Positions 49,200 through 64,000 of a DNA stretch of 64,000 nt are shown one piece after another (position 1 is the first letter of the stretch; every line of letters begins with the position of its first letter). The stretch is taken from NCBI RefSeq assembly GCF_028882255.1, contig NZ_JARBUY010000003.1, positions 85,018 through 149,017 on the forward strand, read 5' to 3'. A program made the position numbers and the translations under genes. Under the pieces are notes generated by a model. The model had not been told where the DNA came from. It was given only the letters and a program-made list of their open reading frames with translations, and did not search any database. This DNA is from Maribacter polysaccharolyticus (lineage in GTDB: Bacteria; Bacteroidota; Bacteroidia; Flavobacteriales; Flavobacteriaceae).

Positions 49200-50063
49200 A
49201 TGAAAGGCATCATTTTGGCAGGCGGTTCAGGAACGCGTTTATATCCCATCACCTTAGCGATGAGCAAACAACTGATGCCCATCTATGATAAACCCATGAT
49301 CTACTATCCCTTGGCCACCTTAATGTCGGCCGGTATCAAGGAAATATTGATCATTACCACTCCGCAGGATCAGGATAAGTTTAAAACCCTTTTGGGGGAT
49401 GGGTCCCAATTAGGATGTTCTTTTGATTTTGCTGTTCAAGAGAATCCCAACGGATTGGCCGAAGCGTTTCTCATCGGTGCCGAATTTATAGGGACCGACA
49501 AGGTTGCCCTGATACTCGGAGACAATATTTTTTATGGGTCAGGCCTGGCCAAATTGTTACAAGCCAATAATGATCCGGAAGGAGGAATTATTTATGGCTA
49601 TCATATACAAGACCCGGAACGTTATGGGGTAGTGGAATTTGATAAAGACGGTAAGGCCATTAGTATAGAAGAAAAACCGTCCAAACCCAAATCGAACTAC
49701 GCGGTTCCCGGCATCTATTTTTACGATAACGAAGTAGTGGCCATTGCCAAAAAGATCAAACCCAGTAAACGGAGGGAATTGGAAATAACCGATGTTAATA
49801 AGGTTTATTTGGAAAAAGGCAAATTGCAGGTGAGTATTTTGGATCGGGGAACGGCGTGGTTGGATACCGGCACCTTTAGTTCCCTGATGCAGGCCTCGCA
49901 GTTTGTTGAGGTTATAGAGGATAGGCAGGGGCTCAAAATAGGGGCTATAGAGGAAGTTGCTTATACCATGGGGTATATTTCCAGAGAACAGCTGCGCAAT
50001 CTCGCTGCTCCCTTGTTAAAAAGTGGTTATGGAGAATATTTGATGGGACTCATTAAGGAGTAA
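49200..50063 (+). CDS. rmlA: Glucose-1-phosphate thymidylyltransferase
   Basis: This 287-aa enzyme makes dTDP-glucose, the first step of dTDP-L-rhamnose synthesis. The start [18 protein letters not shown] is the nucleotidyltransferase signature. [28 protein letters not shown] and [12 protein letters not shown] are diagnostic of RmlA/RfbA. The length is typical. A 283-bp gap, not rmlB, follows. Confidence 0.97.
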
Positions 50064-50346
50064 GTGGTTGCCAGTTTAAATGGTTAAGAAGTTAAGTTGA
50101 AAAACGACAAGTAAACTACATAAAGTCTAGTCGCGAAGTGGAGGGATTATAGAGTTGAAAGGTAAAATAGGGAAGGTTAAGGTCGTAACATAACCGCAGA
50201 ACCGTTTAGCCTTATTACTTATTTAGGGGATTATAAAGTTAAATAACCCAGGAGAAGAACGGAACATAACTTGATAACAAGATAACCATAAAGTCGTCTA
50301 ATTCCAGTAAAAAACATAATTGGAAAACAATATAAAAAAGGAAACA

Positions 50347-50892
50347 TTGAAAGTAACAGAGACCCAGTTAAAAGGCTGTTTTAGTTTAGAACCAACGGTC
50401 CATAAAGATGAACGAGGGGTGTTTTATGAATCCTATCACAAGGCCCAATTGGAGGAGGCCCTTGGAGCGCCCATTAATTTTGTTCAGGACAACATTTCGA
50501 TATCCAATAAAGGGGTATTGCGGGGCTTACACTATCAAAGGGGGGAGTTTGCCCAGGCCAAATTGGTACAAGTATTGAAAGGAGCGGTATTGGATGTGGT
50601 GGTCGACCTGCGCAGGGATAGCAATACCTTTGGGCAGCATTTTAAACTTAAACTGTCCTCTGAAAACAGAAAATCCCTTTTTATACCAAAAGGTATGGCC
50701 CATGGGTTCTTGGCACTGACCAACGAGGTGATTTTCGCTTACAAATGTGATGCGTATTACCACCCCCAATCGGAAGCAGGAATTGTATTTAATGACCCGG
50801 AATTAAAAATTGATTGGGAACTATCGGAAATGGATATGATTCTTTCCGAAAAAGATTTAAGATTGCCCCTATGGACGAATCGCAAAATGTAA
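50347..50892 (+). CDS. rmlC: dTDP-4-dehydrorhamnose 3,5-epimerase
   Basis: This 181-aa cupin epimerises dTDP-4-keto-6-deoxyglucose. Motifs are FSLEPTVHKDERGVFYES, FVQDNISISNKGVLRGLHYQ and LFIPKGMAHGFLAL, the last containing the active-site His region. There is no usable upstream ATG: an in-frame TAA lies at 50317-50319, and only TTG codons at 50320 and 50347 are available. I chose 50347, which gives the family start KVTETQLKGC and follows an A/G-rich stretch. It overlaps rmlD by 22 bp. The 283 bp between rmlA and here hold no gene. Confidence 0.93.
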   Translation: MKVTETQLKGCFSLEPTVHKDERGVFYESYHKAQLEEALGAPINFVQDNISISNKGVLRGLHYQRGEFAQAKLVQVLKGAVLDVVVDLRRDSNTFGQHFKLKLSSENRKSLFIPKGMAHGFLALTNEVIFAYKCDAYYHPQSEAGIVFNDPELKIDWELSEMDMILSEKDLRLPLWTNRKM

Positions 50893-51665
50893 AACGCATA
50901 CTGGTGACCGGGGCTTCAGGCCAATTGGGACGAAGTCTTCAGGATTTGGCTCATGTTTACCCTAAAATGGAGTTTGTTTTCCTGGATTCGGATGCTTTGG
51001 ACATAACCGATCACGAAGCAGTTGCCCAAATCTTCCAAACGGATGGTTTTGACTACTGCATCAACTGTGCAGCCTATACCAATGTGGAACAAGCGGAGAA
51101 AAGCCCGGAAAAAGCCTTTAAAGTGAATGCAGAGGCCGTAAAGAACTTGGCTTTGGCTTGTAAAAAATACAGCGTAATATTAATCCATATCTCAACCGAT
51201 TATGTTTTTGATGGGGAAAAAGGTGCGCCTTATACGGTTGATGACCAACCCAACCCCATCAACATGTATGGAAAATCTAAATGGGAGGGAGAAAAATACA
51301 TACAGGAAATATTGGATACCTATTTTATTGTCCGTACTTCTTGGTTGTACCATAAAGAATATGGGAAGAACTTTTATAGAACGATACTGGAAAAAGCACG
51401 GAAAGGAGAGGAATTGCGGGTTACGGATGAGCAAATAGGTTGCCCTACCGATGCGGTAAACCTTGCTCAATATTTACTGAATCTGATCACCTACGAAAAC
51501 CGGCCATATGGCATTTCCCATTTTACGGATGGACAGGCCTTGAGCTGGTACGGGTTTGCCCTCAACATCCTGAAAGGAAATGGGTTGAAAAATACTACAA
51601 TTATTGTGAAGGACAATAATTATCGTAGTTTTGTGAAGAGACCAAAAATAAGCGTATTAAATTAA
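50871..51665 (+). CDS. rmlD: dTDP-4-dehydrorhamnose reductase
   Basis: This 264-aa short-chain reductase forms dTDP-L-rhamnose. The NAD(P)-binding motif GASGQLGR lies at residues 14-21. VINCAAYTNVEQAEK-type residues, STDYVFDG and the YGKSKWEGE catalytic Tyr/Lys motif are present. I chose the ATG at 50871, as a longer frame from 50814 adds residues overlapping rmlC. It is the last gene before base composition becomes clearly more AT-rich. Confidence 0.95.
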   Translation: MDESQNVKRILVTGASGQLGRSLQDLAHVYPKMEFVFLDSDALDITDHEAVAQIFQTDGFDYCINCAAYTNVEQAEKSPEKAFKVNAEAVKNLALACKKYSVILIHISTDYVFDGEKGAPYTVDDQPNPINMYGKSKWEGEKYIQEILDTYFIVRTSWLYHKEYGKNFYRTILEKARKGEELRVTDEQIGCPTDAVNLAQYLLNLITYENRPYGISHFTDGQALSWYGFALNILKGNGLKNTTIIVKDNNYRSFVKRPKISVLN

Positions 51666-51683: not shown

Positions 51684-52697
51684 ATGGATTTTACTGGTAA
51701 ATCACTCTTAATCACTGGAGGGACTGGTTCCCTAGGAAAGGCTTTAACAAGTCATATATTTACTAATCACTCTGAAATTAGAAGACTAATCATCTTTTCT
51801 AGAGATGAGCAAAAACAATTTCAGATGGCCCAGGAATATCCTACTGATCGATTTCCTCAAATAAGATTTTTTATAGGAGATGTTAGGGATAGAGACCGAT
51901 TGATTAGGGCATTTAAAGGTGTAGATTACGTTATTCATGCAGCCGCTATGAAGCACGTACATCTAGCGGAATATAACCCAGAGGAATGTATAAAAACAAA
52001 CATAGGAGGGGCTCAAAATGTGGTTGATGCTTGTTTTGAGACGAACGTTGAAAGAGTAGTGGCTTTATCTACGGACAAGGCTTGTGCACCCATAAATCTA
52101 TATGGTGCTACAAAGTTAACTTCTGATAAATTATTTATTGCAGCAAATAACATCAAAGGTGATAGCCCTATTCGCTTATCTGTAGTGCGATATGGAAATG
52201 TAATGGGATCTAACGGGTCAGTAATTCCTTTTTTTATAAATAAGAAAAAAGAGGGTTCCTTGCCTATAACCGATCCAAATATGACCCGATTTAATATCTC
52301 ACTACAAGGAGGAGTTGACATGGTAATGCATGCTCTGAAGTATGCATGGGGCGGAGAGCTTTATATTCCAAAAATACCATCGTACAGAATAATGGATGTT
52401 GCTGAAGCGATTGCCCCGGAATGCGATAAGCCAATAGTGGGAATAAGGCCAGGAGAAAAAATCCATGAAGAAATGATTACTCCTTCTGATTCTTTTTACA
52501 CGTATGATCTTGGAAAATATTATACAATATTACCTTCCACCCATAAATGGAAATTAGAAGACTTTATAAAAGAATTTAATGCAAAACCCGTACCATCCAA
52601 TTTTAGTTATAATTCAGGTGAAAATCAGGAGTGGGAAACTGTAGAGAGCTTACGTAAGCTTATAAAAGAACATGTAGATTCAAATTTTGCTATATGA
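51684..52697 (+). CDS. pseB: UDP-N-acetylglucosamine 4,6-dehydratase (inverting)
   Basis: This 337-aa protein catalyses the first step of pseudaminic acid synthesis, dehydration with C5 inversion of UDP-GlcNAc. Visible are the Rossmann motif TGGTGSLGKAL (residues 11-21), the region SRDEQKQFQM, YVIHAAAMKHVHLAEYNP, and the catalytic Tyr140/Lys144 in YGATK. These match PseB rather than RmlB, which would carry a different substrate loop. Its stop overlaps the pseC start by 4 bp, beginning a tightly coupled operon. Confidence 0.95.
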   Translation: MDFTGKSLLITGGTGSLGKALTSHIFTNHSEIRRLIIFSRDEQKQFQMAQEYPTDRFPQIRFFIGDVRDRDRLIRAFKGVDYVIHAAAMKHVHLAEYNPEECIKTNIGGAQNVVDACFETNVERVVALSTDKACAPINLYGATKLTSDKLFIAANNIKGDSPIRLSVVRYGNVMGSNGSVIPFFINKKKEGSLPITDPNMTRFNISLQGGVDMVMHALKYAWGGELYIPKIPSYRIMDVAEAIAPECDKPIVGIRPGEKIHEEMITPSDSFYTYDLGKYYTILPSTHKWKLEDFIKEFNAKPVPSNFSYNSGENQEWETVESLRKLIKEHVDSNFAI

Positions 52698-53842
52698 TGG
52701 GACCGATACCTTATGGACGTCAAAACATAGAGCAAGACGATATTGATGCTGTTGTAAAAACATTAACAGCTGATTTTTTAACACAGGGACCAAAAGTTAA
52801 AGAATTTGAAGATAAGTTTGCAGAATACGTTGGAGCCAAATTTGCCGTAGCTGTAAACAACGCTACTTCTGGATTGCATTTAGCAGTTTTGGCTTTAGGT
52901 TTAAAACCAGGAGAACGTGTAATCACAACGCCAATAACATTTGCGGCTTCTGCTAATTGCGTAAGGTACGCCGGGGGTGAAGTTTGGTTTGCCGATATTG
53001 ACCCCGATACCTATCTGTTATCATTAGAAAGCACCAAAAACCTTATAGAGAGTAAACCAAAAGGCTTCTTTAAAGGAATTATTCCAGTAGATTTTGCGGG
53101 CTTACCGGTAAATTTGGAGGAATTTCGAAATTTAGCCAACATTCATGATCTTTGGATTATTGAAGATGCAGCACACGCTCCAGGGGGGTATTTTATAGAT
53201 TCGAAAGGTGAGCAGCAAAAGTGTGGTAATGGCAATTACGCGGATATCGCTGTATTTTCATTTCATCCAGTTAAACATATTGCCTGTGGTGAAGGTGGTA
53301 TGGTAACTTCCAACTCTGAAGTTCTATACAAGAAATTATCATTGCTGCGAACACATGGAATCACCAAGGAAAACATGAAAGAAGACCATGGGGGTTGGTA
53401 TTACGAAATGCAAGAACTTGGATACAATTATCGACTAACCGATATACAATCTGCACTGGGTATCGCACAACTTTTTAAAAACGATGCAGGTGTTAAAAGA
53501 AGGAATATTATTGCCGAAACTTATAAAAAATCGTTTAAAGGCAAAATTAAATACCAAAGCTTACCGGGAGGCATGGTCAATGCTCATCATTTATTTGTAA
53601 TCGAGGTTGATGATAGAAAGGGATTATATGAATTTTTAAAAGCTAATAATATTTTTGCACAAATACATTATATACCCGTTCATACTTTACCATACTATAA
53701 AAACATTGACTATGGAAATGTTGATTTAAAAAATGCTGAAAATTACTATTCCAAGTGCATAAGTTTGCCCATGTATCCAGGTTTAACCGATGACGAGCAA
53801 GAATTTGTAATAAATAAAACACTAGGATTCATTAATGGCTAA
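52694..53842 (+). CDS. pseC: UDP-4-amino-4,6-dideoxy-N-acetyl-beta-L-altrosamine transaminase
   Basis: This 382-aa PLP-dependent DegT/DnrJ/EryC1 aminotransferase installs the 4-amino group. The PLP Lys is Lys194 in FHPVKHIACGEGGM. NNATSGLHLA and the DAAHAPGG loop bind cofactor and substrate. YGRQNIEQDDIDAV at the N-terminus is typical of PseC. It overlaps pseB by 4 bp and pseF by 8 bp. Confidence 0.95.
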   Translation: MMGPIPYGRQNIEQDDIDAVVKTLTADFLTQGPKVKEFEDKFAEYVGAKFAVAVNNATSGLHLAVLALGLKPGERVITTPITFAASANCVRYAGGEVWFADIDPDTYLLSLESTKNLIESKPKGFFKGIIPVDFAGLPVNLEEFRNLANIHDLWIIEDAAHAPGGYFIDSKGEQQKCGNGNYADIAVFSFHPVKHIACGEGGMVTSNSEVLYKKLSLLRTHGITKENMKEDHGGWYYEMQELGYNYRLTDIQSALGIAQLFKNDAGVKRRNIIAETYKKSFKGKIKYQSLPGGMVNAHHLFVIEVDDRKGLYEFLKANNIFAQIHYIPVHTLPYYKNIDYGNVDLKNAENYYSKCISLPMYPGLTDDEQEFVINKTLGFING

Positions 53843-54545
53843 TTTAGCTATCATACCGGCCAGAGGTGGAAGCAAACGTATTCCAAGAAAGAATATTAAA
53901 TTCTTTTTAGGTAAGCCGATTATTGCTTATTCCATTGAAGCAGCATTAAAAAGCGAATTGTTCGAGGAGGTAATGGTATCTACCGACGATGAGGAAATTG
54001 CAAAAATTGCTAGTGACTATGGAGCGAAAGTTCCTTTTTTAAGAACTGATAAGAATTCAGATGACTTTGCAACAACTGTAGAAGTTATTACTGAAGTTAT
54101 TGAGAATTACAAGAAGATTGATAAAACATTTGATTACATATGTTGTATTTATCCCACAGCTCCTTTTGTCACTATACAAAAATTAACGAATAGTTTAAAA
54201 ATTTTAAAAAAAAATAGTTTAGATACAGTATTGCCTGTAATTCAATATAGTTTCCCTGTCCAGAGAGCTATGAGAGCATTTCAAAAAAATCTTATCCGTA
54301 TGATTCAACCCGAATACATAAATACACGATCTCAAGATTTAGAGCCGACATATCATGATGCAGGACAATTTTATTGGATGAGAACAGAGAAGATTGTAGC
54401 ACAAAAGAAATTATGGACAGATTGTACGGGATTTATTGAAATTAGTGAGATAGAGGCCCAAGATATTGATACTGTAACCGACTGGAAAATAGCTGAATTA
54501 AAATATAAACTGATGATTGATGGGGAAGAAACGGATTCTATTTAG
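53835..54545 (+). CDS. pseF: Pseudaminic acid cytidylyltransferase
   Basis: This 236-aa enzyme activates the nine-carbon sugar to its CMP form. The CMP-sialate-synthetase signature IIPARGGSKRIPRKNIKFF is at residues 5-23, followed by STDDEEIAKIA and CCIYPTAPFV. QFYWMRTEKI is typical of PseF. It overlaps pseC at its start and pseG at its end, so all are translated from one message. Confidence 0.95.
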   Translation: MANLAIIPARGGSKRIPRKNIKFFLGKPIIAYSIEAALKSELFEEVMVSTDDEEIAKIASDYGAKVPFLRTDKNSDDFATTVEVITEVIENYKKIDKTFDYICCIYPTAPFVTIQKLTNSLKILKKNSLDTVLPVIQYSFPVQRAMRAFQKNLIRMIQPEYINTRSQDLEPTYHDAGQFYWMRTEKIVAQKKLWTDCTGFIEISEIEAQDIDTVTDWKIAELKYKLMIDGEETDSI

Positions 54546-55539
54546 AGCAGATGGAAATTCTAAAACTGGTTTAGGGCATTTATATCGAGTTTTTGCATTA
54601 ATAGAAATGATAAAAGAAGATTACGAATATACCCTGTTAATAAGAGAAGATTCAGAATTAGTCGTCATTCCGAAATCATATAACTTAGATGTTATTCCAT
54701 CAAGGTTTGATACTCTAGAAGAGCCTAATTGGATACTGAAAAAATACGAACCTACAACTAACATTATCATAGCCGATGGCTATGCATATAATTCAAGTTA
54801 TCAAAAGGAAATTAAGAAAGCTGGATATAAACTTATTTATATAGATGATTTAACAACAATCGAAATGTCTGCTGATATTGTTGTTAATCATTCTTTAATT
54901 GTAAAACCAGAACATTTTAGAGCAAAACCAAATACTAAATTTGCCTTAGGTGCTAACTACGCAATGTTGAGGCCTAAGTTCATTGAAATTGCTAAAAGAA
55001 ATAAACGACCTAGTAATGTTAAAGAAGTACTTGTAAGTTTTGGTGGTGCGGATTTTTATGATTTAACAAGTAAGGCTGTTAAAGCTTTAACTCAAATAAG
55101 TTCTATAAAAAAAATTAATGTTTTAATTGGAGCTGCAAATAAAAACCAACATGTATACAAAATTGAGAAGGAATATAAGAATGTAATTATTCATAAAAAT
55201 CTAGCTGAAGCAGAGGTGATAGATGTTATGGAAAAGTGTCAGCTTGCTATTATTCCTTCAAGTACAATTAGTTATGAAGTGTGTTCAGTGAAAATGTTGG
55301 TAATTTGCGGATATTTTATTGACAATCAAGAATTAATATATCATGGATTAAAAGGAAAAAATGTAATTTATCCAGCAGGAGATTTTAAAATGTATGATTC
55401 TCTACGTTTTGAACAAGTTATAAACGAGGTAATTGAATTTGATTTAATAAAACAAAATGAAATGCTTAAAAATCAAAAAACTTTGTTTGATGGAAATCAA
55501 AAAGAACGATTCTTGGACATTATTAAAAAGATTAGTTAA
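54520..55539 (+). CDS. pseG: UDP-2,4-diacetamido-2,4,6-trideoxy-beta-L-altropyranose hydrolase (PseG)
   Basis: This 339-aa GT-B-fold enzyme removes UDP from the 2,4-di-N-acyl sugar. Motifs are RADGNSKTGLGHLYR (with the catalytic-region His), IYIDDLTTIEMSADIVVNHS and LVSFGGADFYDLT. I used the ATG at 54520; a TTG at 54517 precedes it. It overlaps pseF by 26 bp. No PseH acetyltransferase follows; two formyltransferase-like genes occupy that place, so the substrate here may be formylated. Confidence 0.9.
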   Translation: MGKKRILFRADGNSKTGLGHLYRVFALIEMIKEDYEYTLLIREDSELVVIPKSYNLDVIPSRFDTLEEPNWILKKYEPTTNIIIADGYAYNSSYQKEIKKAGYKLIYIDDLTTIEMSADIVVNHSLIVKPEHFRAKPNTKFALGANYAMLRPKFIEIAKRNKRPSNVKEVLVSFGGADFYDLTSKAVKALTQISSIKKINVLIGAANKNQHVYKIEKEYKNVIIHKNLAEAEVIDVMEKCQLAIIPSSTISYEVCSVKMLVICGYFIDNQELIYHGLKGKNVIYPAGDFKMYDSLRFEQVINEVIEFDLIKQNEMLKNQKTLFDGNQKERFLDIIKKIS

Positions 55540-56177
55540 TGAAAATTCAGATTTTAGTCGATAATCCATATTCTTGGATCCTACCGTATTCAAAGCAATT
55601 AATTTTAGAAATTTATAATGAATTTGGACTTAAAGCAACCCTTTTACATAAGCATGAAGATGTTGTAAAAGGAGATTTATTGTTTCTTTTAGCTTGTGAA
55701 AAAATCTTCAAAAATTTAGATTATAATTCCCATAACTTAGTGATTCATGAAAGTGACTTGCCAAAAGGTAAAGGGTGGTCTCCACTTACATGGCAAATTT
55801 TAGAAGGTAAAAATAAAATACCGATAACTTTATTTGAAGCAGCTGTAGCAGTGGATGCTGGAAAAATCTATCTGCAAGATTATATAGAATTAGTTGGACA
55901 TGAATTGTTAACAGAGATAAAACACCAACAGGGGCTAAAAACAATTGAATTAATAATAAAATTTATAAGAAATAAAACCCGAATTTCAGGAAAATCGCAA
56001 AAAGGCGTATCTACTTATTATACCAAAAGAGGCCCCAATGATAGTGCATTAGATATTCATAAATCAATTGATGAGCAGTTTAATCTACTAAGAATAGTTG
56101 ATAATGACCGATATCCGGCATTTTTTGAGAAAAATGGGCAGAAATACATTATAAAAATTTACAAAGATGGCATCTAA
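55539..56177 (+). CDS. Formyltransferase-family protein 1 (probable sugar N-formyltransferase)
   Basis: This 212-aa protein resembles the catalytic domain of 10-formyl-THF-dependent formyltransferases. HNLVIHESDLPKGKGWSPL holds the Asn/His part of the active site, and VAVDAGKIY supplies the Asp. It is shorter than Met-tRNA formyltransferases and lacks their C-terminal domain, as sugar formyltransferases do. The start ATG overlaps the pseG stop by one base. The conserved C-terminal motif RIVDNDRYPAFFE resembles that of the next gene. The likely substrate is the 4-amino group made by PseC, or the amine freed by the deacetylase; which one is inference. Confidence 0.8.
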   Translation: MKIQILVDNPYSWILPYSKQLILEIYNEFGLKATLLHKHEDVVKGDLLFLLACEKIFKNLDYNSHNLVIHESDLPKGKGWSPLTWQILEGKNKIPITLFEAAVAVDAGKIYLQDYIELVGHELLTEIKHQQGLKTIELIIKFIRNKTRISGKSQKGVSTYYTKRGPNDSALDIHKSIDEQFNLLRIVDNDRYPAFFEKNGQKYIIKIYKDGI

Positions 56178-56850
56178 TTATATTATATTATCGAGTAAAG
56201 CTTGGAATATAGATTTAGTTGAGAGGCTTAAATTGGATGCGCCAGAATCTAATTGGCATTATATTTCAAGAAAAGAAGATTTTAATTTAGAGGTTCTTGA
56301 GAAAATTAAGCCAGAGAAAATCTTTATACCGCATTGGTCTTATATTATTCCAGAATCCATTTTTATAAATTTTGACTGCGTTGTTTTTCATATGACGGAT
56401 TTACCATACGGTAGAGGAGGGAGTCCTCTGCAAAATCTTATTGCTAATGGGTTAGAGCATACAAAAATCTCTGCAATTAAAGTTGTAAAAGAATTGGATG
56501 CTGGACCAATCTATTTAAAAAGTGAGTTAGGCTTGTATGGAACTGCAGAAGAGATTTTTATCAGAGCCAATCATATTATTTACAATATGATAATTAAAAT
56601 TAAAAATGAATCCCCTATTTTATCAGAGCAAGAAGGCAAAATTACCACATTTAAAAGGAGAACGCCTAAAATGAGTTCAATAGAAGACTTAAAGGAATTA
56701 GAAGATATATTTAATCATATTAGAATGTTAGATGCCGATGGTTATCCACATGCCTATTTAGAAACTGAAAGATTAAAATTGGAATTTACAAGAGCGTCAT
56801 TAAAAGCAGATAAATCTATAATTGCAGATGTTAGAATCACTAAAAAATAA
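56167..56850 (+). CDS. Formyltransferase-family protein 2 (probable sugar N-formyltransferase)
   Basis: This 227-aa protein is a second formyltransferase-fold protein. FHMTDLPYGRGGSPLQNLI contains the active-site His, and KELDAGPIYLK contains the Asp. RMLDADGYPHAYLE near the C-terminus parallels the first copy. The two proteins are paralogous but clearly diverged, so they probably act on different amines. It overlaps the genes on both sides. Confidence 0.82.
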   Translation: MASNYIILSSKAWNIDLVERLKLDAPESNWHYISRKEDFNLEVLEKIKPEKIFIPHWSYIIPESIFINFDCVVFHMTDLPYGRGGSPLQNLIANGLEHTKISAIKVVKELDAGPIYLKSELGLYGTAEEIFIRANHIIYNMIIKIKNESPILSEQEGKITTFKRRTPKMSSIEDLKELEDIFNHIRMLDADGYPHAYLETERLKLEFTRASLKADKSIIADVRITKK

Positions 56851-57538
56851 AAAAATACTTGTCGTTGTTGCACACCCTGACGATGAACTATTAGGGCTAG
56901 GAGCTAGTATGCATCTACTTATTAAAAAACACAACTGTAAAATAAGGGCCGTTATTTTAGGAGAAGGGATAACTAGTAGATCAGATCAACGTGATGCCGA
57001 AAAATGGAAAGACGAGTTAAAACAACATAAACAAAATATAGAAGACGCGATTTCCCAAATAGGATATGAATCTGTTGGTATTTACGATTTCCCAGATAAT
57101 AGATTTGATTCTATTGCACTGTTAGACATCATAAAAGTTGTGGAAAAGGAAAAAGCTGATTTTGATCCTGAGATAATTTTTACTCATCATGGAGGAGACG
57201 TCAATGTAGACCATCAAAGAACTTTTGAAGCAGTAATAACTGCCACTAGACCCATGGAGCATGAAAAAGCAAAAACGATTATCACCTTTGAAACACCTTC
57301 GGGTACTGAGTGGAGAGCTTCATCCGATCCAAGACATTTTATCCCTAATTTTTACATTTCGGTTAGCGAAGAAGATATTGAAGCAAAAATTAGGGGGATG
57401 GAATCTTATAAATTTGAAAAGCGAGAATTTCCACATCCAAGATCACCAAAGGCATTAACTATTTTGGCACAACAAAGAGGTATTTCAGTTGGTAGAACAT
57501 ATGCAGAGGCTTTTTGTATTGTTAGAAATGTTGACTAA
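56828..57538 (+). CDS. PIG-L family deacetylase
   Basis: This 236-aa protein has the metal-binding motif AHPDDE at residues 15-20 and a downstream H-x-D-H-type motif (THHGGDVNVDHQ), as in GlcNAc-PI/LPS de-N-acetylases and BshB. In this operon it probably removes an N-acetyl group from a pseudaminic precursor or product. I used the ATG at 56828; a TTG at 56822 is an alternative. It overlaps the second formyltransferase by 23 bp. A remnant of a different PIG-L gene lies at 58802-58964. Confidence 0.9.
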   Translation: MLESLKNKKILVVVAHPDDELLGLGASMHLLIKKHNCKIRAVILGEGITSRSDQRDAEKWKDELKQHKQNIEDAISQIGYESVGIYDFPDNRFDSIALLDIIKVVEKEKADFDPEIIFTHHGGDVNVDHQRTFEAVITATRPMEHEKAKTIITFETPSGTEWRASSDPRHFIPNFYISVSEEDIEAKIRGMESYKFEKREFPHPRSPKALTILAQQRGISVGRTYAEAFCIVRNVD

Positions 57539-57569
57539 TTATAAAAAATAAACACTAAGTAATACAAAT

Positions 57570-58613
57570 ATGAAAATAGGAAATAGGCAAATTGGAAATA
57601 ACAATCCTTGTTTTATTATAGCAGAATTATCTGCAAATCATAATGGGGATTTAAATGTTGCGATCGAAACAATAAGAGCTGCAAAAAGAACGGGAGCTGA
57701 TGCCATTAAGCTTCAGACATACACTCCAGACACCATGACTATAGATGCTAATAACGAACACTTTAAAATTACAGTTGGTACTTTATGGGATGGTAAAACA
57801 CTTTATGAACTGTATGGGGAGGCTTATACTCCTTGGGAGTGGCATAAAAGACTGTTTGAGGTAGCGGAGGAAGAAGGATTAATTTGTTTTTCATCTCCTT
57901 TTGATATTACGGCGGTAGATTTTCTTGAAGATTTAAATGTTCCAGCTTATAAAATAGCCTCATTCGAGATTCAAGATATTCCATTAATAGAATATGCCGC
58001 ATCAAAAGGAAAGCCTATTATAATTTCTACTGGAATAGCAGAAGAGGAAGACATCCAATTAGCTGTAGATACTTGCAGGAGCGTTGGTAATAATGATATT
58101 ATTTTATTGAAATGCACATCTTCATATCCTGCTCCCTTAGAATTAGCGAATTTAAATACGATTCCAGATTTAAAAACGCGCTTTCAAGTAGAGGTAGGGT
58201 TTAGTGACCATACATATGGTTCTTTAGCGCCGACAGTAGCAACAACTCTAGGAGCCAAGGTAATAGAAAAGCATTTTATTTTAGACAAGAGTATAGGAGG
58301 ACCAGATGCTGATTTTTCTTTAGATGTTAATGAATTTACAGAAATGGTAAACCGTGTCAGAGATACAGAAAAACTATTAGGAAAAGTATCTTATGAAATT
58401 TCTGAAAAAGTAAAAAATAACAGAAAGTTTGCAAGATCTCTTTTTATTGTCAAAGATGTTAAAGCCGGAGACGTAATAAGCGAAGATAATGTACGTTCAA
58501 TTCGGCCTGGTTATGGAATACATCCAAAATATTATAATGATTTGTTGGGTAAAACGTTTCTTATAGCTAAAAAAGCGGGGACTCCTTTGGAGTTTGATTT
58601 AATCCAGGAGTGA
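57570..58613 (+). CDS. pseI: Pseudaminic acid synthase
   Basis: This 347-aa NeuB-family enzyme condenses the free 6-deoxy-AltdiNAc-type sugar with phosphoenolpyruvate. The N-terminal TIM-barrel motif is FIIAELSANHNGDLNVA. IISTGIAEEEDI, LLKCTSSYPAP and VGFSDHTYGSLAPT are family motifs. The C-terminal SAF (antifreeze-like) domain starts around residue 285 (ARSLFIVKDVKAGDVI). Motif details favour PseI over NeuB/LegI. It ends the pse operon. Confidence 0.94.
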   Translation: MKIGNRQIGNNNPCFIIAELSANHNGDLNVAIETIRAAKRTGADAIKLQTYTPDTMTIDANNEHFKITVGTLWDGKTLYELYGEAYTPWEWHKRLFEVAEEEGLICFSSPFDITAVDFLEDLNVPAYKIASFEIQDIPLIEYAASKGKPIIISTGIAEEEDIQLAVDTCRSVGNNDIILLKCTSSYPAPLELANLNTIPDLKTRFQVEVGFSDHTYGSLAPTVATTLGAKVIEKHFILDKSIGGPDADFSLDVNEFTEMVNRVRDTEKLLGKVSYEISEKVKNNRKFARSLFIVKDVKAGDVISEDNVRSIRPGYGIHPKYYNDLLGKTFLIAKKAGTPLEFDLIQE

Positions 58614-59144
58614 AAGAAAAGGTTCGAAGGGGCTTTATACCAATAGCAATCAATATAGTTTTGATAGCAGAAATAAAAATAACAAGGCCTTTAATAAATG
58701 ATTAAACCCGTATATTATAATTTTTGAAATACCTTCAGAAATGAATGGATTTTTTCTACTGAAATAAAACAATTTATTGTCAGTTTATTTTTGAAATAAG
58801 CGAAAAGCATATTAAGCCAAAAATAAAAGGCTATCAATTTCAAAAAAGAGAGTTCCTGTACCCAAAGTCACCTGGAGCATTGACCATTTTAGCGAAGCAC
58901 AGGGGGCCTTATGGTTGGTAAGCCATTGGCAGAGGCCTTTTGTATCGCGCGGATATTTAAGTAATATAAGCATATTTTTGTAAATTATAACTATTCAATA
59001 AATTCGAATTATTACATTAATTTTTAAATCTTTAGTCTGAGTTCTAAATGGAAGGATTTAAGGTTTAGCAGAAAATAGTAATATTATATTTTAGTTAAAA
59101 TATAAAAAGCAAGAGAGTCTATATGCATCAAAAAAGCTTTGTTA
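58614..59144. other. Intergenic scar between pseI and the flippase gene
   Basis: These 531 bp have no intact gene. The middle contains a decayed PIG-L deacetylase fragment (58802-58964). The remaining sequence is AT-rich without recognisable motifs. Confidence 0.6.
58802..58964 (+). pseudogene. Frameshifted C-terminal remnant of a PIG-L family deacetylase
   Basis: In one frame the codons read YQFQKREFLYPKSPGALT then ILAKHRG. After a +1/-1 shift near 58903 another frame continues GLMVGKPLAEAFCIARIF and stops at 58962-58964. This aligns with the last 40 residues of the intact PIG-L protein (KFEKREFPHPRSPKALT, ILAQQRGISVGRTYAEAFCI). The DNA has diverged and is less AT-rich than its surroundings, so it is not a recent copy of that gene. 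Confidence 0.7.
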
Positions 59145-60380
59145 ATGTTAGGTAAGTCATTCCTGTTGATAAGTATAAGGGGAATCTCTCTTATAACTAA
59201 ATTTTTGTTTGTTTTTTTTTTAGGAAAGTATGCTATAGATACATCAGTAATAGGGGAATATGGAATTATTGTTTCTTCTTTGGGAATAGTTGTTTTTTTA
59301 TTGGGTTTTGAATTTCATGTAAGAAATGGAAGAGAAATTGCCAAATCAAACAAAGATGCGGCCACTTACATTAAAAGACAATTGATTTTATATAAATACT
59401 CCTATCTATTTGTTTTACCATTAATGACCTTATGTTTTTATTTAACTGATTTTATACCACCTAAATATATTCCTTATTTAATTTTATTAATAATAATAGA
59501 GCATTGGGCATTGGAGAACCATAGAATTCTTAACGCACTTAAAAAACCAGTAGTTGCCAGTCTGATTTTTGGAGTAAAAAATATTGCCTGGGTCTTTATA
59601 AGTTTTTTAGATTTTTTCTTCGTAGATAATCGTATAGTTCTTAAAAGATATATACTTTATTGGATAGTTATATCCACTATTTGCTCTTTTGTAGGTTTTT
59701 ATAGAATAAAGTTAATAGTAGGGAAATCTGTTATAAAGTACAAAATAGGGAAGTTTAAAATTGTTAAGGACATAAAATTTGCTTCTATGTTTATGTTGAG
59801 CTCAATGTCGTTTCTCATTATTAATTTTTCTGACAGGTTTATGTTAGATTATTATTCAGATAAGATTGCAGTGGGGGTATATACAACATATTACCAATTC
59901 ACAAATGTAATTGAACAAATTATAGCTACTGTTTTGGTTGTTATGTTTGTCCCAAAACTTGTAGAATTGTACAATGTCAAATCTGACACCTTTAAAAAAG
60001 AATATTCTAAATTCAATCACCTTGTTCTCTTGAGTTCACTTGTTTTCCCGCTTTTAATTGTAGGAGTAGCACCATTTTTATTTAAATTAATGGAGAAGGA
60101 TAATTTATTAGATGATATAATTTCATTGTATTTATTGTTATTGGGAGGGTCTTTCTATGGGCTGTCAATAAGTTTTCATTATAAGTTGTATATACTTGAA
60201 AAGGATAAAATAAATATATGGATTAGTGTTTTGTGTATGTGTTTTAATTTGGTTTTGAATTTTATTTTTATACCTAAAATGGGTATTATGGGAGCTTCGT
60301 TAAGCACATTGTTTACTTTTGTTTTATTGTTCTCTTTAAAAGTTATATTGTCTATTAAGTACAAATTTGTTTATTCTTAA
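59145..60380 (+). CDS. Wzx-like polysaccharide flippase
   Basis: This 411-aa integral membrane protein has about twelve predicted transmembrane helices, starting KSFLLISIRGISLITKF. It matches the MOP/PST superfamily of undecaprenyl-PP-linked oligosaccharide flippases in length and hydropathy, with conserved-type positions such as SDRFMLDYYSDKIAVGVY. I used the ATG at 59145; a TTG at 59139 is in frame. It exports repeat units for Wzy-dependent polymerisation. The following gene starts one base after its stop. Confidence 0.85.
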   Translation: MLGKSFLLISIRGISLITKFLFVFFLGKYAIDTSVIGEYGIIVSSLGIVVFLLGFEFHVRNGREIAKSNKDAATYIKRQLILYKYSYLFVLPLMTLCFYLTDFIPPKYIPYLILLIIIEHWALENHRILNALKKPVVASLIFGVKNIAWVFISFLDFFFVDNRIVLKRYILYWIVISTICSFVGFYRIKLIVGKSVIKYKIGKFKIVKDIKFASMFMLSSMSFLIINFSDRFMLDYYSDKIAVGVYTTYYQFTNVIEQIIATVLVVMFVPKLVELYNVKSDTFKKEYSKFNHLVLLSSLVFPLLIVGVAPFLFKLMEKDNLLDDIISLYLLLLGGSFYGLSISFHYKLYILEKDKINIWISVLCMCFNLVLNFIFIPKMGIMGASLSTLFTFVLLFSLKVILSIKYKFVYS

Positions 60381-60381
60381 A

Positions 60382-61797
60382 ATGAGAAGTGAAAATATAC
60401 TATTGCTAGGCCTTCAACCTGAATTGCATATTAGAATTGCCAAGAGACTAAAAGAGTTGGGACACAATCCGATGTTCACTATATTTAGTAAAAGGCACTC
60501 GCTTTTTTATAAAAACACTGAACAAAAGACATTTTTTTACCAGCAAGAAAATAGGGAAGTTTATAAAGAATATCTAAAGAAAGATATTTCCCTTATTGAT
60601 AGAGAAATTAAGATATTAGAGAATAAGTACAACATACCTTATCACTTCATAATTAATTCCGATAGATATATAAAAGTACTTAATAGTAAGAAGAAGAAAA
60701 TACATGCTATTTTGATGACTAAGCACGCTTTGAATATAATTAGTGAAAACTCCATATCAATTGTATATGGGGAATTAGCGTGTATGGTAGATCTTATTTA
60801 TTATTTTGTAGCAAAAAGCCAAGGTGTTAAATATGCTACTTTTGCCCATGGGAGATATACAAACAAACTTACAATAGACGATGTTTATGGCCAAAGGCAG
60901 GGTCTTAAAAAAGTATATCAGGAATATAAGAAAGGAAGCAGGACAATAACAGATTATGATAATAGACTATTGGAATCACTTCTTGAAAATAAAACCCCAG
61001 ACTATGAAGCTGTAAATAGAAAAGCCGAGAAATTTTCAGAAGTAATTACTAAGGAATTAAGAATAAAAATAGTAAGGCTTTGGCCAAACCTATTGGCTTA
61101 TTTTCACGATAGAAAGATGCCCGTAGCTATTGACTATCGAATTGGGGCAAAAATATTGGGTGTATTAAATAATATGGTGTTTCCTTTAAAAAAAATACTA
61201 TTTAAATATAATTTTTCAAAGACAGATCCTAATGATGATTATTTTTTATTGCCCCTTCATTTTCAACCAGAGGCTTCCACCTTGGTTTTTGCCCAAAATT
61301 ATGTGGACCAATTAGATCATATAAAGAATTGCGCAAGAAATATCCCATTAGGCACTTATTTATATGTAAAGGAACACCCTTCTATGTACAGAACAAGGAG
61401 ATTGTCAGAACTAAGAAAGTTAAAGAGGATAGAAAATGTAAAGTTGATTTCTCCTTACGAAAATACTTTTAACCTTATAAAAAAAGCAAAAGGAATCATA
61501 ACACTTACCAACACAACGGGAATTGAAGGCATTGTGTCTAAAAAACCGGTATACGTTTTTGGGAATGTATTTTATGATATATACGATTTTGCGGACAAGA
61601 TTAGTAATTATGGTGAATTATATGATAAAATAAAAAAAAACGAAAGCATTGCAATTAATGACTTAAACCTTAAATGGTTCCTTTTATCAAGCTATCATTC
61701 CCTTCATGAAGGGAATTATAATAACTTTAAAAAAGATCCTTCTGTTTTAGGTATGGAAAATATAAATAAATGTGTACAAATAATATTAAACAATTAG
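60382..61797 (+). CDS. Capsule polysaccharide synthesis-type glycosyltransferase
   Basis: This 471-aa protein has no membrane segment. The C-terminal half carries TYLYVKEHPSMYRTR and ITLTNTTGIEGIVSKKPVYV, which resemble KpsS/KpsC-like capsule proteins and related sialyl/Kdo transferases. KYATFAHGRYTNK lies near residue 155. By context it may transfer the CMP-activated nonulosonic acid made by the pse operon, but that is inference. An ATG at 60382 is chosen over an in-frame TTG at 60367. Confidence 0.65.
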   Translation: MRSENILLLGLQPELHIRIAKRLKELGHNPMFTIFSKRHSLFYKNTEQKTFFYQQENREVYKEYLKKDISLIDREIKILENKYNIPYHFIINSDRYIKVLNSKKKKIHAILMTKHALNIISENSISIVYGELACMVDLIYYFVAKSQGVKYATFAHGRYTNKLTIDDVYGQRQGLKKVYQEYKKGSRTITDYDNRLLESLLENKTPDYEAVNRKAEKFSEVITKELRIKIVRLWPNLLAYFHDRKMPVAIDYRIGAKILGVLNNMVFPLKKILFKYNFSKTDPNDDYFLLPLHFQPEASTLVFAQNYVDQLDHIKNCARNIPLGTYLYVKEHPSMYRTRRLSELRKLKRIENVKLISPYENTFNLIKKAKGIITLTNTTGIEGIVSKKPVYVFGNVFYDIYDFADKISNYGELYDKIKKNESIAINDLNLKWFLLSSYHSLHEGNYNNFKKDPSVLGMENINKCVQIILNN

Positions 61798-61801
61798 TAT
61801 C

Positions 61802-62908
61802 GTGAAAAAGAAAATATTAATTGTTGGACAAACCCCACCCCCATATCATGGACAGGCTATAATGATAAAAAATTTGGTGGAGTATGATTTTAGTGAACTA
61901 GAAATATATCACATAAGAATGAGGTTTTCAGATGAAACAAATATCGGAAAGTTTAGTTTTTTGAAAATTTTATTACTTCCAAGAATAATTTTAAGCATTT
62001 TTTGGTATCGTATCCGATACAATGTTAGAAATCTTTACTACCCGCCAGCTGGTCCGGATTTTATTCCCATTATAAGAGATATTATAATATTGGGAGCAAC
62101 ACGATTTTTATTTTCTAAAACCATATTTCATTTTCACGCAGGTGGTATATCAGAAAAAATTGCAGAATCCAATTCAGTTTTAAAATTTTTGGCGAAAAGG
62201 TGGGTTTATGCAAAACCTAATTTAACTATACGTTTATCTAGGAGAAATCCAGAGGATGGTTTGTTTTTTAAAGCGAAAAAGGATATTGTAATTCCTTATG
62301 GGTTAAAGGATTTTTTTAATGAAAAATATAATGTTACAAATAATGAAGTTCCGGTAATACTTTATGTAGGTTCTGTTAAAAAGTCTAAAGGAGTTCTAGA
62401 CCTTATTAACGCTGCTAAAATCCTCATGGAAAAAAAGCTTTCTTTCCATTTAAAAATTATGGGAAAGTTTGACTGTCTTTCTTTTGAAGAAGAAATAACA
62501 GTTATATTAAAGGAAAATAAAAGTTTACAGAAACATGTTTCACTAGTAGGAATAAAAACAGGAGAAGATAAATGGAAAGAATATGGAAGTTCAGATATTT
62601 TTTGTTTTCCATCTTATTATGAATGTGAAACTTTTGGTACTGTATTAGTTGAAGCCATGCAATATTCCTTGCCAATTGTAAGTACTTTTTGGAGAGGAAT
62701 ACCCGATATTGTAGAGGATGGTGTATCTGGTTTTCTTCTTGATATTAACAATGTTAGCGAAATAGCGAATAAACTAGAAGTGTTAATTAAAAACAATGAG
62801 CTGAGAATAGATATGGGTAATAAAGGAAGAGAGATTTTTATAAATAAATTTCAAGAAATCTCTTATTACAAAAAATTTGGGAATGAAGTTTCGAATGTGT
62901 GCTCCTAG
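61802..62908 (+). CDS. Glycosyltransferase family 4 protein
   Basis: This 368-aa GT-B enzyme starts with GTG (KKKILIVGQTPPPYHGQAI). The C-terminal GT4 signature is ECETFGTVLVEAMQYSLPIV, followed by GIPDIVEDGVSGFLL, with the EX7E-type glutamates. YVGSVKKSKGVLDLINAAK is the usual linker motif. It adds a sugar to the growing repeat unit at the inner face of the membrane. The sugar and acceptor cannot be told. Confidence 0.88.
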   Translation: MKKKILIVGQTPPPYHGQAIMIKNLVEYDFSELEIYHIRMRFSDETNIGKFSFLKILLLPRIILSIFWYRIRYNVRNLYYPPAGPDFIPIIRDIIILGATRFLFSKTIFHFHAGGISEKIAESNSVLKFLAKRWVYAKPNLTIRLSRRNPEDGLFFKAKKDIVIPYGLKDFFNEKYNVTNNEVPVILYVGSVKKSKGVLDLINAAKILMEKKLSFHLKIMGKFDCLSFEEEITVILKENKSLQKHVSLVGIKTGEDKWKEYGSSDIFCFPSYYECETFGTVLVEAMQYSLPIVSTFWRGIPDIVEDGVSGFLLDINNVSEIANKLEVLIKNNELRIDMGNKGREIFINKFQEISYYKKFGNEVSNVCS

Positions 62909-62997
62909 AAATTTATGAAAAAAATAGGAGCTAATAATAAAACTAAGCTAGTCATATTCGTAATACAAAATTATTTATTGGTCAATACTTTAAAACA

Positions 62998-64000
62998 ATG
63001 GACATGGACCAAGATTTAAGGTTGCAAAGAACATATTATGAAATTTTCGTTTTCTCGACTATAATTTGCTTCTCCCCTTTGCCCAAAGCAGTTATTTTTT
63101 TCCTGCCATTTTCTGCCATCTTCTGGTATTTAAAAAACAACCCAAAAATATACTCTTTTGCAAGGCTTGTTATCTTTTTCATTTCTTTAATTGGCTATGT
63201 AATAATATATTACTTCATTAGAGAAAGAGATTTTTTCTTCTTAAACGTTACTCTTGGAGTTTTGTTTTATAGTTCTTTTATTTTTCTGTTTGTTGCAAAA
63301 GCTCCTAGAATGCTTAATATGGACTATTTCAATAAAAAATATATACCTTTTATCAAGTGGGTCATCATTATAGAATCTTGGATAGGTATTTTACAGATTA
63401 TATTTGTAGGTAAAGGATTTGACCTTGCATCTGGGGACTATGTTCAGGGGACAATAAATTTATTTTCGTTTAATAACAACGAAGTTGGTTTTTCAAATGT
63501 GTATTTTGTTATTAATCTTACAATTTTATTGTTGGCGTACTATATGCTAGCGTTAAGAAAAAACAAATGGGTATTATTATTTGGTTTTTCCGCAATATTA
63601 CTGGCTTCGGCCATACATTTAAGTCTTTCCGTTATTGCCGCTATGTTTGGAACATATCTATTGCTAAATACAGTAAAGGCTATAAAATTCTTAATTCCAG
63701 TGCTAGTTTTCTTTGTTTTGTTATTTGTTGTCACACCTAGGAATTTCTCAAGTATTTCAGGTTATAAAAAACAAATAGTTGAATCTGAAAATTTAAAAAT
63801 GAAATCTTCTATAAAAACCTTTACAGCACTTTTGGATTCTCCAAAGGACTTTTTTTTGGGGTATGGGCTTGGACAATATTCCAGTAGAAGTTCTTTGGTT
63901 TTATCCGGGAATTACTTTTATGATAAAACCACAAAAAAATTCAAAGTACCTTTAGGAATACGAAATGAAACAAAAATTTTTGAAAAAAATTTGAAATTTT
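62998..64000 (+). CDS. Wzy-like O-antigen/capsule polymerase (partial at right edge)
   Basis: The frame is open from ATG 62998 to the window end, 334 codons. Many hydrophobic segments are visible (about residues 18-45, 52-72, 77-97, 118-138, 160-180, 190-240). Near residue 280 the motif FFLGYGLGQYSSRSS resembles the loop of Wzy/O-antigen ligase-type proteins. Position after flippase and transferases supports a polymerase. The first 89 bp after the GT4 gene hold no convincing gene. The true C-terminus is outside the window. Confidence 0.75.
   Translation, partial: MDMDQDLRLQRTYYEIFVFSTIICFSPLPKAVIFFLPFSAIFWYLKNNPKIYSFARLVIFFISLIGYVIIYYFIRERDFFFLNVTLGVLFYSSFIFLFVAKAPRMLNMDYFNKKYIPFIKWVIIIESWIGILQIIFVGKGFDLASGDYVQGTINLFSFNNNEVGFSNVYFVINLTILLLAYYMLALRKNKWVLLFGFSAILLASAIHLSLSVIAAMFGTYLLLNTVKAIKFLIPVLVFFVLLFVVTPRNFSSISGYKKQIVESENLKMKSSIKTFTALLDSPKDFFLGYGLGQYSSRSSLVLSGNYFYDKTTKKFKVPLGIRNETKIFEKNLKF

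Follow-up and report, generated by a model that had tools for sequence, protein, structure and literature searches.

A pseudaminic acid operon of Maribacter polysaccharolyticus without pseH and with two formyltransferase-fold genes: a candidate route to a di-N-formyl sugar

The subject of this study is a 64-kb window of the Maribacter polysaccharolyticus genome (+ strand, positions 85018–149017 of contig 15; the genome amounts to 4.76 Mb in 21 contigs), and in particular the eight genes found at 51684–58613 of it. These all run in the same direction (+), in the order pseB, pseC, pseF, pseG, FTA, FTB, PIG-L and pseI (Table 1), and no stretch within the operon is left unassigned.

Table 1. Genes of the pseudaminic acid operon and two genes downstream of it (positions in the window)
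Feature	Assignment	Position	Strand	Evidence
pseB	UDP-GlcNAc 4,6-dehydratase (inverting)	51684..52697	+	TIGR03589, 494.3 bits (cut-off 407.75)
pseC	aminotransferase giving the 4-amine	52694..53842	+	TIGR03588, 453.4 bits (cut-off 423.5)
pseF	CMP-pseudaminic acid synthetase	53835..54545	+	TIGR03584, 303.5 bits (cut-off 205.7)
pseG	UDP-sugar hydrolase	54520..55539	+	TIGR03590, 172.8 bits (cut-off 153.55)
FTA	short formyltransferase-fold protein, 212 residues	55539..56177	+	PF00551, 27.8 bits (cut-off 26.1)
FTB	formyltransferase-fold protein, 1ZGH family, 227 residues	56167..56850	+	PF21553, 83.3 bits (cut-off 27.0)
PIG-L	PIG-L de-N-acetylase	56828..57538	+	PF02585, 72.1 bits (cut-off 28.2)
pseI	pseudaminic acid synthase	57570..58613	+	TIGR03586, 508.3 bits (cut-off 340.25)
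flippase-like	polysaccharide protein, downstream	59139..60380	+	PF01943, 23.8 bits (below cut-off 28.2)
Capsule_synth	candidate sugar transferase	60367..61797	+	PF05159, 42.1 bits

The pse genes were called with the NCBIfam equivalog cut-offs. An earlier note on this DNA had listed pseB, pseC, pseF, pseG and pseI, with two formyltransferase-fold genes and a PIG-L deacetylase between pseG and pseI, and this description is confirmed: all five Pse proteins (PseB, C, F, G and I) score above their own cut-offs, the three intervening genes have Pfam matches, and for FTA and FTB the assignment is consistent with the predicted folds. The same note had the three inserted genes overlapping their neighbours, which is correct for pseG/FTA (1 base), FTA/FTB (11 bases) and FTB/PIG-L (23–29 bases), but not for PIG-L and pseI, where 31 bases lie in between. 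In the operon as a whole, all other adjacent genes overlap as well, by 1 to about 29 bases. The start of PIG-L is probably the ATG at 56828 and not the upstream TTG at 56822, and that of PseG is probably the ATG at 54520 and not the TTG at 54517. One of the loci collected for comparison, L011, has the identical eight genes in the identical order, and the arrangement is therefore unlikely to be due to chance.

Compared to the canonical pathway to CMP-Pse5Ac7Ac (PseB/C/H/G/I/F), the operon contains PseB, C, F, G and I but differs in having FTA, FTB and PIG-L and no PseH. The absence of PseH, also stated in the earlier note, was borne out by a genome-wide search with TIGR03585 (cut-off 93.1), which gave no match above the cut-off and five weak ones, the best at 46.3 bits. 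It should be pointed out that this model is too strict for the phylum: among 375 Bacteroidota genomes scanned with PseI as a sample independent of FTA, 53 have PseI above its cut-off, whereas TIGR03585 exceeds its own in only 2. A local profile of PseH-like GNAT proteins was therefore built, and it found no match in the window, where PseG thus carries no fused acetyltransferase domain, or in the ca 19 and 20 kb that flank its two ends. On contig 11, a GNAT protein (G000:C11:538850) reaches 64.5 bits with the local profile, which would fit a scenario in which the reaction of PseH is carried out by an unlinked acetyltransferase, with an accessory role for the formyltransferases. However, this protein scores higher as spermidine N1-acetyltransferase (65.3 bits) than as PseH (46.6 bits, against the cut-off of 93.1), that is, it is more SpeG-like, and it lies on a separate contig. 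It was judged unlikely to be pseH, and the scenario as a whole is highly improbable.

Regarding the two formyltransferase-like proteins, FTB falls below the PF00551 cut-off (22.8 vs 26.1 bits), and the AlphaFold (AF2) models, with predicted local distance difference test (pLDDT) values of 96.8 for FTA and 94.6 for FTB, have the formyltransferase fold in common. The top Foldseek matches of the FTA model are 1ZGH, VioF, Rv3404c and ArnA. By profile, FTA scores 78 bits with 1ZGH, about 60–63 bits with ArnA and 38 bits with PseJ, and gramicidin synthetase subunit A is also reached. FTA is thus closer to 1ZGH and ArnA than to PseJ, another short formyltransferase, to which the profile match is remote (E 1.1e-8, positions 3–162 of both), while the single FTA sequence matches 6CI2 with E 0.52 only. 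The entries 6CI2 and 6CI4, named PseJ in the PDB, are presumably the Anoxybacillus enzyme that, as Reimer and co-workers reportedly found in 2018, formylates the PseC product.

FTB is a close, full-length relative of 1ZGH from Clostridium thermocellum, both in sequence (E 9e-68) and in the predicted model (TM 0.96, 1.0 Å, 50% identity). The PDB label of 1ZGH is methionyl-tRNA formyltransferase. In the present operon, a housekeeping Fmt function was considered for FTA and FTB and rejected, as their TIGR00460 scores are 35.3 and 30.8 bits at a cut-off of 201.5. The genome's own Fmt (257.8 bits with the same model) and the formyl-tetrahydrofolate deformylase PurU are encoded on other contigs, and FTA and FTB are therefore not these enzymes. 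The relatives of FTB collected here mostly adjoin PIG-L, often together with nonulosonic acid genes, and this operon context speaks against the Met-tRNA formyltransferase label of 1ZGH.

The PIG-L protein matches both the PF02585 profile and the AHPDD...H motif. In TTG-start numbering, His18, Asp20, Asp21 and His131 are present in 29 of 29 sequences and Pro19 in 26 of them. Its scores with the bacillithiol deacetylases BshB1 and BshB2 are 27.4 and 28.6 bits, far below the cut-offs of 182.5 and 195.25.

The following pathway can be proposed for this set of genes. PseB and PseC would convert UDP-GlcNAc to UDP-4-amino-4,6-dideoxy-L-AltNAc, and FTA, replacing PseH, would formylate the 4-amine made by PseC (the future N-7), presumably with 10-formyl-tetrahydrofolate as the donor. 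In a pathway without PseH, the GlcNAc-derived acetyl is the sole acetyl group. The simplest role of PIG-L would therefore be to strip this 2-N-acetyl, after which FTB would formylate the freed amine (the future N-5). PseG would take off UDP, PseI would condense the sugar with phosphoenolpyruvate, such that the C4 nitrogen becomes N-7 and the C2 nitrogen N-5, and PseF would activate the product with CMP. The finished sugar, in which formyl replaces acetyl at both nitrogens of pseudaminic acid, would then enter the surface polysaccharide encoded alongside. The reactions, the donor and the pairing of enzymes with nitrogens are what we infer from the observed gene content, order, folds, conserved residues and co-occurrence, and PIG-L and FTB could act either before or after PseG. 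We lean, by a narrow balance, to CMP-Pse5Fo7Fo as the product of the operon.

To place these genes in a wider context, relatives of FTA were collected by a pattern scan of 84,980 species genomes, which retrieves close relatives only. This gave 74 loci from many phyla, and the fetched stretches of some of them end at contig ends. From the Bacteroidota sample, 52 PseI loci were fetched (the window's own genome was left out); FTA and FTB are both rare there, each being present in 5 of the 375 genomes. The FTB sample consists of 53 loci, corresponding to 45 clusters at 85% identity, which come from the FTA-selected loci, from PseI- or FTB-selected genomes, from a cyanobacterial plasmid and from 24 viral contigs reached via FTB alone. 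The genes of all loci were named with profiles built in this analysis. The FTA loci nearest to that of the window are a Limnochordia bin (L012, 64% identity) and flavobacterial loci (62%).

FTB and PIG-L were found to be tightly coupled. Of the 45 FTB clusters, 42 have PIG-L within the stretch that was fetched, and in 33 it is at most 60 bases away. When the count is restricted to the 24 FTB clusters obtained by routes other than FTA, the window among them, PIG-L is present in 22 and FTA in 5. Among the 74 FTA loci, PIG-L occurs in 20 of the 21 with FTB, compared to 10 of the 53 without it (p 9e-10). FTB and PIG-L are located between pseG and pseI also in distant genomes (L011, L024, L035, L047, L078, L177 and L190), and in two of these, L177 and the plasmid of Synechococcus NIES-970 (L190), they are accompanied by a GNAT and not by FTA. 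The viral contigs from IMG/VR (L193–L216) carry FTB together with PIG-L in 19 of 24 cases, some of them with PseB- and PseI/LegI-like genes; nonulosonic acid genes may here be carried by viruses or proviruses. Some of the viral synthases reach just 239–342 bits with the PseI profile and are perhaps of the legionaminic type. As a separate observation, an FTB copy with internal stops, apparently a decayed gene, is present at G626:C1:1255110-1255777 in a genome of the phylum of G017.

These results bear on the possibility that only one formyl group is introduced, namely that FTA gives the 7-N-formyl group, the 5-N-acetyl is kept, and PIG-L and FTB serve another amino sugar of the polysaccharide. 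Such a sugar, Pse5Ac7Fo, is known from Pseudoalteromonas distincta KMM 638 (excerpt of the review PMC3210612). Neither FTB nor PIG-L is in the fetched stretch of 43 of the 74 FTA loci, some of which are cut by contig ends, and the stretches fetched from some viral contigs (e.g. L193 and L203) contain FTB and PIG-L but no gene resembling PseI. However, several distant genomes have the two genes between pseG and pseI, within the pse core, which argues against this option, and we regard it as unlikely. While the earlier note had spoken of a mono- or di-N-formyl pseudaminic acid, the FTB–PIG-L coupling favours the di-N-formyl form.

The proposal that FTA takes the place of PseH can be examined in a similar way. 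In five loci (L035, L047, L067, L078 and L080) FTA and PseG are fused in a single frame, while PseG fused to a PseH-type GNAT was found in at least 16 open reading frames (15 of the 52 Bacteroidota PseI loci). A natural reading, from the sequences, is that in both types of fusion the PseG hydrolase would be joined to the acylating step that precedes it. Furthermore, PseI lies on the same strand within the fetched stretch in 44 of the 74 FTA loci, and a PseH-like GNAT is present in 10 of these 44, as compared to 33 of the 50 PseI loci without FTA (Fisher p 3e-5), where 5 more have a weak GNAT match.

Stronger evidence than this difference in frequency comes from the closed loci, that is, those that contain PseC, PseG and PseI and in which no large gap is left unassigned. 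There are 12 of them in the FTA-selected set, and a GNAT is absent in 10. Five of the GNAT-free loci have FTA alone (L041, L042, L059, L077 and L080), and the other five have FTA, FTB and PIG-L (L011, L015, L024, L047 and L063). The closed FTA clusters that do hold a GNAT are L068 and L072, and also L178 from the PseI-selected set. A different formyltransferase, ArnA-like and distinct from FTA, precedes PseI in L140, L146 and L148, the last of which has a weak GNAT-like neighbour as well; L137 also has an ArnA-like formyltransferase, with a GNAT farther away.

Another option considered was that the roles are swapped, such that the amine made by PseC is formylated by FTB and the one exposed by PIG-L is formylated by FTA, which the common fold of the two proteins would allow. 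However, PIG-L tracks FTB far more than FTA, FTA is on its own in the five closed pathways just mentioned, which are free of PIG-L, and fusions to PseG were observed for FTA while none were seen for FTB. The swapped assignment is thus very unlikely.

A number of observations weigh against the di-N-formyl pathway. The first concerns the active site. The catalytic motif of formyltransferases is Asn-x-His ... Asp, and both FTA and FTB lack the Asn of this motif, having Val instead. In the FTA family, His70 and Asp106 are found in 74 of 74 sequences, and 73 of these have Val where the Asn would be; in the FTB family, His75 and Asp111 are found in 22 of 22, with V, I, C or L at the Asn position. 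Compared to the sugar N-formyltransferases ArnA, VioF, Rv3404c and WbkC, the fold, the His and the Asp are thus shared, but the family Asn (as seen in ArnA alignments) is replaced by Val and the chains are shorter. The Asn is retained in the genome's own Fmt and PurU and in the ArnA-like proteins of four other pse clusters, and the other formyltransferase found in L022 has Gly at this position.

The second concerns PseH. Of the 74 FTA loci, 14 have a GNAT that is either fused to FTA or no more than 400 bases from it, and there is one further weak case. PseH above its cut-off stands beside FTA in L054, L060, L061, L069 and L072 and is fused behind FTA in L062, and these six represent 6 of the 7 genomes with PseH over the cut-off (by coordinates) among the 50 FTA genomes searched. 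PseG, GNAT and FTA are joined in single-frame triple fusions in L043, L049 and L068, and the closed locus L178 has a PseG–GNAT fusion together with FTA, PIG-L and FTB. The GNAT contrast given above (10 of 44 vs 33 of 50) is, moreover, biased, as the profile was trained on Bacteroidota, partly on the comparison loci themselves, whereas the FTA loci come from many phyla. Finally, three FTB clusters have no PIG-L (L027; L204–L207; L209), PIG-L is 3–6 kb away from FTB in L197/L198 and L216, and the genome has five PIG-L matches, the one in the operon included. It can be mentioned separately that the triple fusions would unite acetyl- and formyl-transfer domains in one protein.

Because of the six loci with PseH beside or fused to FTA, FTA is not a simple replacement of PseH everywhere, and this lowers the confidence in the pathway. 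In some lineages, that of the window among them, FTA would appear to stand in for PseH. In others it seems to work alongside PseH, and there both enzymes could be competing for the same amine, or FTA could have a different site of action. The same six loci, together with the substitution of the catalytic Asn in both families, could also mean that FTA and FTB are not engaged in formyl chemistry at all, or that FTA accompanies PseH, in which case the function might be transfer of a different one-carbon or acyl group, action at a different position, or binding. Against this stand the invariant His and Asp in the 74 FTA and 22 FTB sequences, the nearest folds, which are those of sugar and tRNA formyltransferases, and the 10 of 12 closed FTA-selected clusters that are GNAT-free, and we therefore consider it quite unlikely, slightly more so than the mono-formyl option.

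Taken together, the di-N-formyl pathway would be the best fit to the gene order, the fusions and the co-occurrence, and it is partly supported. It is strengthened by the FTB–PIG-L coupling and the PseG–FTA fusions and weakened by the PseH–FTA neighbours and the missing Asn, and it is the best available explanation. The sugar of the operon thus probably bears formyl on one or both of its nitrogens. The idea of the earlier note, formylation in place of acetylation combined with deacetylation by PIG-L and a second formylation, is accordingly backed by gene order, fusions and co-occurrence, but is put in question by the missing Asn and by the GNAT genes near FTA.

We also examined the nine loci that have PIG-L without FTB. 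In L022 another formyltransferase adjoins PIG-L, L173 has two carbamoyltransferases with PIG-L, and in L166 and L052 a PF13527-type protein is found alongside it (below the cut-off in L052). In L012 (6475–9734) and L187 (10540–13804), from two distant genomes, the genes adjoining PseI encode PIG-L, an ATP-grasp protein and a calcineurin-like phosphoesterase, possibly as another N-5 substituent module. In the remaining three, L016, L034 and L043, no alternative transferase candidate was found among the genes scanned; in L034 (3002–4135), the PIG-L reading frame continues into a phage-lysozyme-like domain (PF00959). L052 brings together FTA, PIG-L and acyl-ligase-like, ketoreductase-like and below-cut-off GNAT-like proteins, a set that could yield the 5-N-hydroxybutyryl-7-N-formyl pseudaminic acid of the Pseudomonas aeruginosa 1244 pilin (excerpt of PMC6222762). 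Judged from their genes, these loci suggest that the group at N-5 is exchangeable.

A broader interpretation would be that the nonulosonic acid operons of many bacteria hold a separable N-5 acyl-swap module, made up of PIG-L, which removes the acetyl of GlcNAc, and an exchangeable transferase (FTB in the case of formyl, and enzymes for different acyl or amide groups in other operons), while FTA constitutes the N-7 module. The two modules combined would give 5,7-di-N-formyl pseudaminic acid. FTA and FTB would then be Asn-independent, and the members of the 1ZGH family would be 5-N-formyltransferases of nonulosonic acids that carry a wrong Met-tRNA formyltransferase label. We put this forward tentatively, at somewhat less than an even chance.

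It is of interest to compare the predicted product with the published sugars, which are cited here from excerpts of the papers. The P. aeruginosa 1244 pilin sugar has the 7-N-formyl group and, as predicted here, its 5-N-acetyl is exchanged too (PMC6222762), and Pse5Ac7Fo of P. distincta also has the 7-N-formyl group (PMC3210612); the predicted product differs from both in having formyl at N-5 as well. A formyl group at N-5 is present in the 5-N-formyl-legionaminic acid of Halorubrum sp. PV6, which belongs to the legionaminic pathway and for which a formyltransferase gene is suspected in the cluster (PMC6137143); the main text of that paper makes no mention of PIG-L, LmbE or deacetyl. Flagellin islands of Geobacillus have pse genes without pseH, and some of them have formyltransferase genes (PMC5109656). 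The presence of a diformamido sugar in the lipopolysaccharide of a fish pathogen was considered and discarded, as 8eLeg5Am7Ac is given for Aliivibrio salmonicida (PMC7371886). Among the matches listed from the open-licence literature, we found no diformamido ulosonic sugars, no di-N-formyl pseudaminic acid and no PIG-L step in such pathways, which is weak evidence of absence. Thus, 7-N-formyl pseudaminic acid is already known, and Pse5Fo7Fo, if made as the genes suggest, would be new.

The surroundings of the operon point to the fate of the product. Upstream, at 49200–51665, there are rmlA-, rmlC- and rmlD-like genes (named from sequence) together without rmlB; with a threshold of E 1e-50, the sole rmlB match of the genome is found on contig 17. 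Downstream, there are a flippase-like gene, a Capsule_synth gene (Table 1) and a glycosyltransferase; we take the Capsule_synth family (PF05159) to be linked to Pse transferases. With these neighbours on both sides, the product of the operon very likely enters a surface polysaccharide. The G+C content is 33% in the cluster and 29% just downstream (58700–64000), compared to 43% in the first 44 kb of the window, and such low values are as expected for an imported surface-polysaccharide locus.

The related gene sets suggest that chemical groups on sialic-acid-like sugars are swapped in a reusable manner. If the proposed scheme is true, two widespread families of formyltransferase-like proteins and one PIG-L family would gain functions open to testing, and there would be an explanation of how the 5-N-acetyl inherited from GlcNAc can be exchanged. 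The scheme also raises the mechanistic question of how formyl transfer takes place with Val replacing the catalytic Asn. The name of the solved structure 1ZGH would need correction, and the N-substituents of bacterial nonulosonic acids would become predictable from gene content.

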